Shown piece after piece: positions 2,157 through 63,146 of a stretch of DNA of 64,000 nucleotides. The stretch spans positions 3,410,001-3,474,000 of the forward strand of contig NZ_CP034363.1 of assembly GCF_007981265.1 (NCBI RefSeq), written 5' to 3'. The notes beneath the pieces were generated by a model. That model was not told where the DNA came from. It worked only from the letters and a program-made list of their open reading frames with translations, and searched no databases. A program made the position numbers and the translations under genes. Every line of letters starts with the position of its first letter. Position 1 is the stretch's first letter. The stretch comes from Pantoea sp. CCBC3-3-1. Lineage in GTDB: Bacteria > Pseudomonadota > Gammaproteobacteria > Enterobacterales > Enterobacteriaceae.

Positions 2157-2176
2157 AAGGCCGCAGCCGCGGCCTT
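2157..2176 (+). terminator. First copy of duplicated terminator hairpin (no T tract)
   Basis: Palindromic 20-mer beginning AAGGCCGC and ending GCGGCCTT, 6 bases after the stop codon of the membrane protein gene. It is identical to 2336-2355, but is followed by GATT rather than a T run, so on its own it is a weak terminator. Confidence 0.7.
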
Positions 2177-2202
2177 GATTTCAGACAACACAGAAGTTTA
2201 AA

Positions 2203-2313
2203 GCACGAGGGGCATGGGCCGGTAATAAAGCGTCACGGGCCATGGACGGCCCGTGTCGAGCTGGCATGGATGCCGCTTTTTGCGTCTTTATGAACGGCCC
2301 ATGCCCCTTGTGC
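2203..2313 (+). repeat. Structured palindromic repeat, copy 1
   Basis: An outer inverted repeat (2203-2221 against 2295-2313, 18 of 19 bases pair) encloses two hairpins. Hairpin 1 is 2234-2255 with 8-bp arms CACGGGCC/GGCCCGTG. Hairpin 2 is 2263-2274 (GGCAT/ATGCC). A conserved GCTTTTTGCGTCTTT follows at 2275-2289. A second copy lies on the other strand at 53587-53687: the 22 bases of hairpin 1 and the 15-base GCTTTTTGCGTCTTT are identical there, whereas the outer arms differ in sequence but still pair. It sits between convergent genes. I do not recognise it as ERIC, BOX or classical REP. Confidence 0.8.
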
Positions 2314-2335
2314 AGACACGACATTATCAGCCAAC

Positions 2336-2358
2336 AAGGCCGCAGCCGCGGCCTTTTT
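2336..2358 (+). terminator. Second copy of duplicated terminator, with T tract
   Basis: Exact copy of 2157-2176, displaced by 179 bases and here followed by TTTTTA, so it can act as a rho-independent terminator for the plus-strand membrane protein gene. The inverted stem also faces the end of the convergent ABC ATPase gene 22 bases away. Confidence 0.85.
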
Positions 2359-5344: not shown

Positions 5345-6601
5345 ATGAACAGTGAAGTGCAACAGCGTCGTTTAGCTGCCACGCCGCGTGGCGTTGGCGT
5401 CATGTGTGATTTCTACGCCGTCCGCGCGGAAAATGCCACGCTGTGGGATCATCAGGGACGAGAGTATACCGATTTTACCGCCGGGATCGCCGTTCTCAAC
5501 ACGGGTCACCGCCATCCAAAAGTGGTCGAGGCGGTGAAAAATCAGCTGGACTGCTTCACCCACACCGCTTTTCAGGTTATCCCTTATGAAAATTATTTGC
5601 AGCTGGCAGAGCGCCTGAATCAGCGTGTCCCGGTAGAAGGCCCGGCAAAAACGACCTTTTTCTCCACCGGCGCTGAAGCCGTTGAAAACGCCGTTAAAAT
5701 TGCTCGTGCCGCAACCGGCCGCGCTGGCGTCATCGCTTTTACCGGCGCGTTCCATGGTCGCACCATGATGACGATGGCGCTGACCGGCAAAGTGGTACCT
5801 TATAAAACCGGCTTCGGCCCGTTTCCGGGTTCAGTATTCCATGCCCGTTATCCTAACGCACTACAGGGTTACAGCGTTGACGATGCGATGGAGAGCCTGG
5901 CCACAATTTTCCGCTGTGATATCAGCCCGCAGGACGTTGCCGCGATTATTTATGAACCGATTCAGGGCGAAGGCGGCTTCAATATCGCGCCGGCTGAATT
6001 TGTCAGCAAGCTGCGTGAACTGTGTGATGAGCACGGCATTCTGCTGATTGCCGACGAAATCCAGACCGGCTTTGCCCGCACCGGCAAAATGTTCGCCAGC
6101 GACTACTACGATGCAAAACCGGATCTGATGACCATGGCGAAAAGCCTGGGCGGCGGTTTACCGATTTCCGCCGTGGCGGGACGCGCTGAGATCATGGATG
6201 CACCCTTGCCTGGCGGTCTGGGCGGTACCTATGCCGGCAATCCTCTGGCAATTGCCTCTTCACTGGCGGTGCTTGAAATCATTGATGAGGAACAGCTGTG
6301 CGAGCGCGCGCTCAAGCTGGGCGCTGAACTGGTGGAAACGCTGAACGCCAGCGGTCATCCGGCGCTGGCAGAAGTTCGTGCCAGAGGCTCGATGGTAGCA
6401 GCGGAATTTAACGATCCTGCTACCGGCAAGCCTTCCGCTGAGATTGCACGAGACATTCAGCAAAAAGCGCTGGCGCAGGGTTTGATTTTGTTGACCTGCG
6501 GCGTACACGGCAACGTTATCCGCTTCCTCTATCCGCTGACGATCCCCGACGCGCAGTTTAAAGCCGCGCTCAGCCTGCTTTCTACCCTTTTAGCGCACTA
6601 A
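5345..6601 (+). CDS. 4-aminobutyrate--2-oxoglutarate aminotransferase (GabT/PuuE type)
   Basis: 418 residues, class III PLP aminotransferase. It transfers the amino group of GABA to 2-oxoglutarate, giving succinic semialdehyde and glutamate, the step after putrescine breakdown. Visible blocks are the N-terminal QRRLAATPRGVGVMC, STGAEAVENAVKIARA, FHGRTMMTMALTGK, the PLP-binding Asp region LIADEIQTGFARTG, and the Schiff-base lysine at residue 266 in MAKSLGGGLP. From memory the N- and C-terminal blocks look closer to E. coli PuuE than to GabT, so no symbol is fixed. It is the first gene of a plus-strand run with the transporter genes; GAGG precedes the ATG. No succinate-semialdehyde dehydrogenase is adjacent. 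Confidence 0.93.
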   Translation: MNSEVQQRRLAATPRGVGVMCDFYAVRAENATLWDHQGREYTDFTAGIAVLNTGHRHPKVVEAVKNQLDCFTHTAFQVIPYENYLQLAERLNQRVPVEGPAKTTFFSTGAEAVENAVKIARAATGRAGVIAFTGAFHGRTMMTMALTGKVVPYKTGFGPFPGSVFHARYPNALQGYSVDDAMESLATIFRCDISPQDVAAIIYEPIQGEGGFNIAPAEFVSKLRELCDEHGILLIADEIQTGFARTGKMFASDYYDAKPDLMTMAKSLGGGLPISAVAGRAEIMDAPLPGGLGGTYAGNPLAIASSLAVLEIIDEEQLCERALKLGAELVETLNASGHPALAEVRARGSMVAAEFNDPATGKPSAEIARDIQQKALAQGLILLTCGVHGNVIRFLYPLTIPDAQFKAALSLLSTLLAH

Positions 6602-52150: not shown

Positions 52151-52233
52151 AGCGGTTATTCAGATCCAATGAGTACCGACAGGGGTTATAAAATTAACCT
52201 GTTGAATAATAATCAAATAATGAGGTTGTGGTC

Positions 52234-53517
52234 ATGAACCATAAAAACCTGTTTGCGAAGTCTGCGCTCGCAGCCGCAGTGGCCATTGTTTCTTCAAACG
52301 CTTTTGCAGCCGGCTTTCAACTTAATGAATTTTCCGCAATCGGTCTGGGCCGCGCCTATTCAGGCGAAGGCGCGATGGGCGATACCGCTGCCTCCGCCAG
52401 CCGCAACCCGGCAACAATGGCATTAATGGATCGCCCGATGTTTTCCATCGGTACCGTATTTATCGACCCGGATGTGGCGGTTGACGGTTCAAGTTCAACC
52501 GGCCAGAGCCTGCATGCAAATAATATTGCGCCTACGGAATGGGTGCCGAATATTCATTATGTCCAGCCGCTTAACGATCGCTGGTGGCTGGGTGCTTCCG
52601 CCAACTCTAATTATGGCCTGGCGACCGAGTTTAATAATGACTACACCGCCGGCCCTTATGGCGGAAAAACCGATCTTCAAACGGTAAACTTTAATTTAAG
52701 CACCGCTTATCGACTTAATGAGAATTTTAGTTTTGGCGTGGGCTTTGATGCCGTTTACGCCCGCGCTAAAATTGAGCGCTACGCGGGTGAAGCCGGCGCT
52801 GCTTTAGGTTTCCCGGCCGATACTCAGATTGCGCATCTGAAAGGCAATGAATGGGGCTACGGCTGGAATGCCGGTATTTTGTATGAGGTGGATCAGAATA
52901 ACCGCTTCGGCTTTACCTATCGTTCAGAAGTCAAAGTCGATTTCGATGGCGCATATAAAAGTTCGGTTCCTGGCTATATCAATTCGCTGCCGCAAGCCCA
53001 GGCTTTTGGTCTGCCATACGGTACCAGCGGTTCAACCATTCCAGGCTCGTTGACGCTGAATCTGCCTGAAATGTGGGAACTGTCCGGCTATCACAAAGTC
53101 GCGCCACAGTGGGCGGTGCATTACAGCCTGACCTACACCAGCTGGAGCCAGTTCCAGGAGCTGAAAGCGACCGGCAGCAGCGGCCAGACGCTGTTCTATA
53201 AAGACGAAAGCTATAAAGATGCGTACCGCATCGCGCTGGGAACATCCTATTTCTATGATGATAACTGGACTTTCCGTGGCGGTATCGCCTTTGATGACAG
53301 CCCGGTCCCGGCCGACCAGCGTTCAATTTCCATTCCCGATCAGGATCGTCTGTGGCTGAGCACCGGCGCCTCCTACGCGTTTAACCAGGATGCTTCCGTC
53401 GACGTGGGCGTTTCATATATGCACGGTCAGCACGTTGAGGTGAACGAAGGCCCCTATACGTTCCGCTCTACCGGCAAAGCCTGGCTATATGGCGCGAGCT
53501 TTAACTACAAGTTCTGA
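52234..53517 (+). CDS. fadL: Long-chain fatty acid outer-membrane transporter FadL
   Basis: 427 residues from ATG 52234, with GAGG 8 bases before (a GTG two codons earlier is rejected). Signal peptide cleaved after AFA (about residue 25). Mature N-terminus [22 protein letters not shown] and [13 protein letters not shown], the NPA-containing hatch motif; a 14-stranded barrel ending in Phe. Takes up long-chain fatty acids. Confidence 0.96.
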
Positions 53518-53534
53518 TTGCCTGACTCATCGTC

Positions 53535-53562
53535 AAAAGGCCTGTCGCAAGACGGGCCTTAA
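53535..53562 (+). terminator. First copy of duplicated fadL terminator (no T tract)
   Basis: AAAAGGCCTGTC - GCAA - GACGGGCCTT, near-perfect 10-12 bp stem with GCAA tetraloop, 17 bases after the fadL stop; followed by AAGG instead of T. Confidence 0.75.
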
Positions 53563-53586
53563 GGTTGTTGACAAAGTGCAGGCTCA

Positions 53587-53687
53587 GGGAGCATACCCCC
53601 TCCGCAAAGACGCAAAAAGCGCCATCCGTGGCAGCTCAACACGGGCCGTCCATGGCCCGTGATGCTTTGCTACGGGCGTAAGCTCCC
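53587..53687 (-). repeat. Structured palindromic repeat, copy 2
   Basis: Reverse-strand copy of the element at 2203-2313. Hairpin 1 (53640-53661) is identical over 22 bases and the 15-base GCTTTTTGCGTCTTT is identical (53606-53620). Hairpin 2 (53621-53632) keeps its stem although a G-C pair became C-G. The outer arms (53587-53600/53674-53687) still pair at 12 of 14 positions but differ in sequence from copy 1. It sits between convergent fadL and mlaA. Confidence 0.8.
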
Positions 53688-53708
53688 CTCGCTTCAGGTT
53701 TGTCAGCA

Positions 53709-53741
53709 GTCAAAAGGCCTGTCGCAAGACAGGCCTTTTTT
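53709..53741 (+). terminator. Second copy of duplicated fadL terminator, with T tract
   Basis: 12-bp perfect stem AAAAGGCCTGTC / GACAGGCCTTTT, GCAA tetraloop, six or more T. The first copy lies 177 bases upstream; the shared unit is about 29 bases with one mismatch. Confidence 0.9.
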
Positions 53742-63071: not shown

Positions 63072-63146
63072 GTCTCCTTAGTTAAATGGATATAACGAGC
63101 CCCTCCTAAGGGCTAGTTGCAGGTTCGATTCCTGCAGGGGACACCA
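63072..63146 (+). tRNA. argW: tRNA-Arg (anticodon CCU)
   Basis: 75 bases including an encoded CCA. Acceptor stem GTCTCCT / AGGGGAC with one G-U pair; D-arm region TAGTTAAATGGATATAAC; anticodon loop CTCCTAA gives CCT; T-arm GCAGGTTCGATTCCTGC. It matches E. coli argW, whose 3' end is a well-known phage and island integration site, and an integrase gene follows. Confidence 0.97.
63125..63146 (+). other. Probable attachment site (left end) within the 3' end of argW
   Basis: The 3' part of the tRNA from the T-loop through CCA is the usual crossover region for P4/P22-type integrases. The integrase gene starts 180 bases downstream. The partner att site would lie outside the window, so the exact core cannot be drawn. 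Confidence 0.55.

Follow-up and report, generated by a model that had tools for sequence, protein, structure and literature searches.

The window, a stretch of 64,000 nucleotides, contains a quasi-palindromic unit of about 150 nt in the gap that separates fadL from the convergent gene mlaA (copy B in Table 1). The unit lies on the minus strand. A hairpin sequence occurs twice around it, at 53532-53560 and at 53709-53737, with 97% identity and a start-to-start distance of 177 nt. Repeat and domain searches confirmed the arrangement given in a preliminary description of this DNA, an element between fadL and mlaA with a hairpin doubled 177 nt apart. Judged by their G+C stem and T run, the flanking hairpins are terminator-like. 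A scan of the window against Rfam returned no match to the element above the gathering cut-off; the sole match was a tRNA gene at 63072-63143.

A sister copy (copy A) lies on the opposite strand, also between convergent genes, one without a Pfam match and the other encoding an ABC transporter ATPase. Its flanking hairpin differs from that of copy B and is again doubled, with a spacing of 179 nt. Internal hairpin 1 is identical over 22 nt in copies A (from 2234) and B (from 53640, reversed). The outer stems differ in sequence and still pair, and hairpin 2 carries a G-C to C-G swap. On the stems, the hairpins and the placement of both copies between convergent genes, the preliminary description was right. 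The second copy on the opposite strand is there as well, but the element is not limited to two copies; it belongs to a family of dozens.

Table 1. Positions in the window of the two element copies, their flanking hairpins and the genes around copy B.
Feature	Position	Strand	Evidence or remark
YPAL-like element copy A	2182..2330	+	covariance model match, 160 bits
Terminator-like hairpin copy 1 at element A	2157..2176	.	AAGGCCGCAGCCGCGGCCTT
Terminator-like hairpin copy 2 at element A	2336..2355	.	AAGGCCGCAGCCGCGGCCTT
fadL	52228..53517	+	PF03349, E 1.4e-148
fadL-proximal terminator-like hairpin copy	53537..53560	.	AAGGCC..GGCCTT; one stem change, G for A
YPAL-like element copy B	53565..53713	-	model positions 1-149; covariance model match, 158 bits; BLAST to RU-2
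Copy B outer stem, 3' arm (approximate)	53587..53609	-	predicted structure
Copy B internal hairpin 2	53621..53634	-	loop ACGGA
Copy B internal hairpin 1	53640..53661	-	loop ATGGA; same as in copy A
Copy B outer stem, 5' arm (approximate)	53665..53687	-	predicted structure
mlaA-proximal hairpin copy	53714..53741	.	T run intact
mlaA	53754..54656	-	PF04333, E 1.4e-62

Family identity and distribution

The window copy aligns end to end with RU-2, 64.6% of the 164 alignment columns being identical; the E value is 1.1e-10 for a searched set of only 53 sequences (the RU-2/YPAL unit sequence is that given in Table 1b of PMC2759123, the part of the source used here). The ends of the two are near-identical (GACTGCTGACAAACC, TTTGTCAAYAACC), and the motifs AAAGCRTC, GAGC and GCGTCTTT are common to both. 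Compared with shuffled sequences, the local score of RU-2 reaches z 15.8 for copy A and z 24.7 for copy B. ERIC/RU-1 (z 0.4 and 0.8) and RU-3 (z 1.7 with copy B) were tried as identities and rejected.

The accessible part of the review PMC2229807 describes YPAL as a unit of 168 bp with internal inverted repeats and duplications of 3-26 bp, whose targets span or abut dyad symmetry, and cites a report of its mobility from 2006. In our copies the inverted repeats are likewise internal (the outer stem), and full copies begin with CAGAC and end with AAYAACC. They resemble YPAL/RU-2 in sequence from one end to the other, in size, in having internal rather than terminal inverted repeats, in their intergenic location, and in the variable-size duplications at dyad symmetry. 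Set against YPAL/RU-2, they are about 15-20 nt shorter, identity is about 65%, and most of the stem sequence differs. With ERIC/RU-1 the element shares the character of a short, palindromic, intergenic enterobacterial repeat, but sequence similarity is absent and the TA ends of ERIC (listed in a table of PMC2229807, in the accessible part) are missing here. Hence, by sequence comparison, the element is a relative of YPAL in another host genus and not a new family. The novelty considered in the preliminary description falls with this match to a named family. The element is ordinary in its identity and of moderate interest in its mechanism.

BLAST finds 40 matches in the host genome. A covariance model trained on 33 copies gives 77 rows there at E <= 0.01; 13 of these are opposite-strand duplicates, which leaves 64 places, the weakest of them uncertain. 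Of the 37 genomes from the genus, 24 contain matches to the model (E <= 0.001, host genome included), and subfamilies, tandem arrays and inverted pairs occur among the copies. In an even draw of 198 genomes and 154 genera from the taxonomic family, 15 genomes and 14 genera have matches (E <= 1e-5 and stricter filtering, host included). Searching plasmids with the window copy gave 48 matching records, all from Pantoea; a copy from another genus matches 15 plasmids from Klebsiella, Citrobacter, Escherichia and Shigella. A 133-nt relative with about 80% identity to the copy in genome G109 is carried by plasmids H150-H164, 14 of these 15 being typed as conjugative. E. coli genomes and phages searched with the window copy gave no match, and neither did phages searched with the copy from another genus. 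Among viral contigs the left end was matched in 14, one of which carries the element: the IMG/VR contig L336, at 6182-6340 (84 bits).

Several copies depart from the simple form. Genome G006 holds a head-to-tail array (L159:470-936) with a period of 159, in which the model matches of three full copies are about 10 nt apart. At nine G050 loci (L127, L129, L131, L133-L137, L139) a second, weak unit (37-44 bits) lies inverted about 57-225 nt from the main one, which suggests a paired or composite form. Locus L255 in G022 is composite and repeated; it has several units, which are inverted and of a more distant type. The host genome itself contains a full element that shares one hairpin with the left end of another (L232), as well as truncated copies that retain one end and the adjoining hairpin (L231, L233, L236, L241, L239, L247). 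It also has two mini-copies of 54 and 63 nt (L229, L230), which keep both ends and miss the core; L229 is flanked by an apparently decayed hairpin duplication. We rejected these mini-elements as proof that the ends suffice for mobility, since deletion of a palindrome after insertion is equally possible.

Insertion at terminator-like hairpins with dyad-centred duplications

All 37 genomes of the genus have a match to the 3' end of fadL, and we compared 30 loci. A script placed the fadL end at 29 of these 30. The element is found at one, that of the host genome, and in none of the stretches compared at the other 28. In G022 and G013 the identical 20-nt stem stands between fadL and mlaA as a single copy; in G050 it is single with one change. 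In two relatives the same gap holds an insert other than the element, about 130 nt long (L180, L181). The site of copy A was matched in 14 of 37 genomes, and at L203, L204 and L208 there is one hairpin and no element. Because relatives have one hairpin and no element, the doubled hairpin is a target-site duplication made by the insertion. The doubled terminator of the preliminary description is thus present, but not as a separate unit: it is the duplicated target of the element. Among the roles offered there, that of a mobile palindromic unit is borne out by copy number, empty sites and target-site duplications. Pantoea plasmid alleles, compared as a young filled and empty pair, gave no clean comparison, and the filled allele is degraded.

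To describe the target we kept 101 copies from 159 model matches. Low scores, opposite-strand readings, the tandem array, the second units of inverted pairs and most loci from other genera were removed. A second set comes from another genus, in which two genomes hold many near-identical copies; 50 of the 55 matches listed were used. The abstract of the 2006 YPAL paper reportedly states that many targets overlap terminator-like sequences.

In the first set, 23 of the 101 copies have a flanking repeat above the 99% level of the null. A hairpin above the 95% level of shuffles lies upstream of 34 copies, downstream of 37, on both sides of 22 and on neither side of 52. Of the 34 significant upstream hairpins, 29 end no more than 3 nt from the element start, in a search that reached 3 nt into the element. 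A second group of 23, defined by a score of at least 10 and by adjoining the element, includes L102 and leaves out L022. Here 22 of the 23 duplications contain a hairpin that touches the element, L126 being the exception. The duplications of the first set are mostly 18-29 nt long (outliers of 9-11 and 32 nt are automatic calls), and for 19 of 22 the midpoint lies no more than 2 nt from that of the hairpin.

The second set agrees. Duplications above the 99% null are found at 19 of 50 copies, and for 16 of these 19 the rebuilt empty site contains a strong hairpin. Fifteen of the 16 duplications have their midpoint at most 2 nt from the hairpin centre, and in 12 the offset is within half a base. 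Two of these duplications are orthologous to others in the set, so that the independent sites number 14. Lengths range from 7 to 26 nt, and the 7-nt duplication covers only the loop region of GGCAGGATATAATCCTGCC.

Duplication length and hairpin length correlate loosely: r is 0.72 and 0.71 in the first set, 0.49 and 0.57 without the poor row L126, and 0.25 in the second set. Hence duplication of the whole hairpin is not the rule; dyad centring is. The repeat is dispersed and inserts at terminator-like hairpins, and the flanking hairpin copies, where found, are target-site duplications of variable length centred on the dyad. Such dyad-centred duplications are a quantitative signature of structure-guided insertion. 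We found no report of them in the accessible parts of the literature searched; the original YPAL report, which lay beyond the reach of that search, may state it. A detectable duplication is absent from 78 of the 101 copies in the first set and from 31 of the 50 in the second. Age and decay are the likely reason, and replacement of the target or one-sided insertion is possible.

Fold and covariation

RNAalifold predicts an outer stem and two internal hairpins, each with an ANGGA-type loop. Two-sided changes occur in 26 of 35 pairs. Of all cells, 95.9% are paired; shuffles reach 79.3%, and sliding the partners brings the share down to 47.7% or less. For the covariation score the observed value is 0.517, compared with 0.199 in shuffles (0 of 500 reach 0.517) and at most 0.127 with slid partners. 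The structure was derived from the alignment on which it was tested, which biases the slid control in its favour, and the relatedness of the rows helps it against the shuffles. The test for covariation that the preliminary description had called for backs the fold. The ANGGA loops, the GAGC linker and the GCGT strand beside CTTT are kept between genera.

We counted cells in 120 model-aligned rows, the best 46 of 65 and the best 74 of 94, one of which is an opposite-strand reading. They contain 3770 Watson-Crick cells, 132 G-U cells and 65 A-C cells, in an alignment to a covariance model that itself leans towards G-U. Without a doubtful two-pair helix, the counts are 103 G-U and 59 A-C. The roughly twofold G-U excess is a weak strand preference, and it fits pairing at the DNA level or correction by template switching. 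Of the suggestion that the structure rather than the sequence is selected or replicated, the covariation part therefore stands, and a strand-specific RNA function does not follow, with G-U only about twice A-C.

These observations bear on two other explanations. The structure may be kept as an RNA or single-stranded DNA module at gene ends, as a transcript stabiliser, an RNase target or an aid to termination, with its mobility long past. The covariation of the fold speaks for such a module, and so does gene orientation: where it could be called, at 24 loci, 16 are convergent and none is divergent. However, the strand bias is weak, and 28 of the 29 readable fadL-mlaA loci lack the element, which argues against a conserved role there. 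We consider this module distinctly unlikely.

Alternatively, the covariation could be mutational. Template switching in quasi-palindromes fixes both arms at once, without selection. The few G-U and A-C intermediates beside the Watson-Crick cells are consistent with this, and the left and right target hairpins at L009 also differ by a paired change. Template switching leaves the conservation of the ANGGA loops, the GAGC linker and the GCGT strand between genera unexplained, and as the source of the covariation it is improbable in our view.

Mechanism and candidate mobilisers

The explanation that we hold to be very probable as a whole is that of a non-autonomous YPAL/RU-2 repeat which duplicates hairpins about their dyad, and which would rely on an extruded target and on its own fold. 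The target would be recognised as an extruded hairpin or cruciform, and gap repair after insertion would duplicate the stem-loop. The fold of the element would be needed in cis for mobility; its parts are the outer stem, the two hairpins with ANGGA-type loops, the conserved GAGC linker and the GCGT strand. A fixed-stagger transposase makes duplications of one length. Here the length varies and the centre stays on the dyad axis, unlike such an enzyme.

A comparable target is used by IS1272 of the IS1182 family, for which Wan et al. (2017, PMC5678879) drew a hypothetical cruciform model. In the part of that paper available to us, the outcome is a duplicated stem-loop when transposon ends attack the 5' feet and a duplicated loop when they attack at the loop. 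IS1272 itself reportedly replaces the stem-loop and leaves no duplication. Our repeat is like IS1272 in that a stem-loop and not a sequence is the target, and the outcomes resemble the stem-loop and loop duplication pathways of the model. Unlike IS1272, it has no transposase and duplicates its target; the likeness drawn here is one of target and model. We infer that the extruded cruciform is the substrate and a DDE enzyme the actor. A more specific proposal is plausible and falls just short of probable: YPAL-type elements may owe their movement to a structure-guided transposase whose substrate is the extruded terminator cruciform, attacked symmetrically either close to the 5' feet or at the loop. 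The duplication would then be set by the dyad axis instead of a fixed stagger, and the cis signal would be the three-way fold with its twin ANGGA loops. If this is true, structure-guided transposition would provide real cases of the duplication pathways drawn as possibilities in the accessible part of PMC5678879.

The preliminary description suggested looking for a linked RAYT-type transposase. A REPIN-like unit moved by a RAYT (Y1) enzyme would, like this element, be palindromic, intergenic and repeated, and Y1 matches, found in 10 of the 37 genus genomes, coincide with the element in G005, G015, G023, G041 and G047. However, no Y1 match exists in the host genome (E <= 1e-5) or in the element-rich genomes G006, G050, G003, G048 and G002, and G052 has 59 Y1 matches and no element. 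The linked transposase is thus not borne out, and a RAYT mobiliser is scarcely credible. The resemblance to REP/REPIN sequences stops at palindromic units in intergenic DNA. The repeat here duplicates its target, its structure is different, and its host is without a Y1 transposase match.

A retro-element moved by reverse transcriptase, either SINE-like or group II intron-like, would account for a structured core and for duplications of variable length. RVT_1 matches occur in 13 of 37 genomes, with one in the host genome, but there are none in G050, G006, G003, G048 and G002, and we regard this origin as highly improbable. We rejected both mobilisers on the grounds that their phyletic pattern does not track the element, though some hosts have both.

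The ends of the element were also used to look for a full-length partner. In the host genome the left end has 44 places, compared with 11 for a reversed control, and the right end 271 compared with 177. With 99 of the 271 right ends used in pairing, at least three end pairs lie 0.5-5 kb apart, and none is a full-length partner. One joins two known copies, and two are matches with three mismatches. The eight long ORFs examined between end pairs are metabolic or regulatory genes and include no transposase. At L017 and L020, where only the left half is present, long ORFs look ordinary by eye, and no hidden transposase was noticed. The searches for Y1 enzymes, reverse transcriptases and end pairs thus yielded no mobilising enzyme, and the accessible part of the review PMC2229807 names none for YPAL. 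Hosts with and without the element provide the start of a phyletic profile for finding the enzyme: copies are many in the host genome, G050, G006, G109 and G235, and 13 genomes of the genus, among them G016, G021, G043, G049 and G052, gave no match to the model.

Dyad-centred duplication would also explain where the element is found. A hairpin left on each side would make insertions at gene ends nearly harmless. Among 27 loci with usable flanks (simple ORF calling), 16 are convergent, eight co-directional, none divergent and three undetermined. This bias towards convergent ends would follow from terminator hairpins being the target, and a role as collision barrier, one of those proposed in the preliminary description, would not be needed. 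As safe landing sites that are copied at insertion, terminator hairpins would explain the build-up of repeats between convergent genes. On the Pantoea plasmids at L275 and L276 a terminator-like hairpin is interrupted by another insert, about 260-570 nt long and accompanied by a repeat of about 10 nt; the ends of this insert are reminiscent of IS4.
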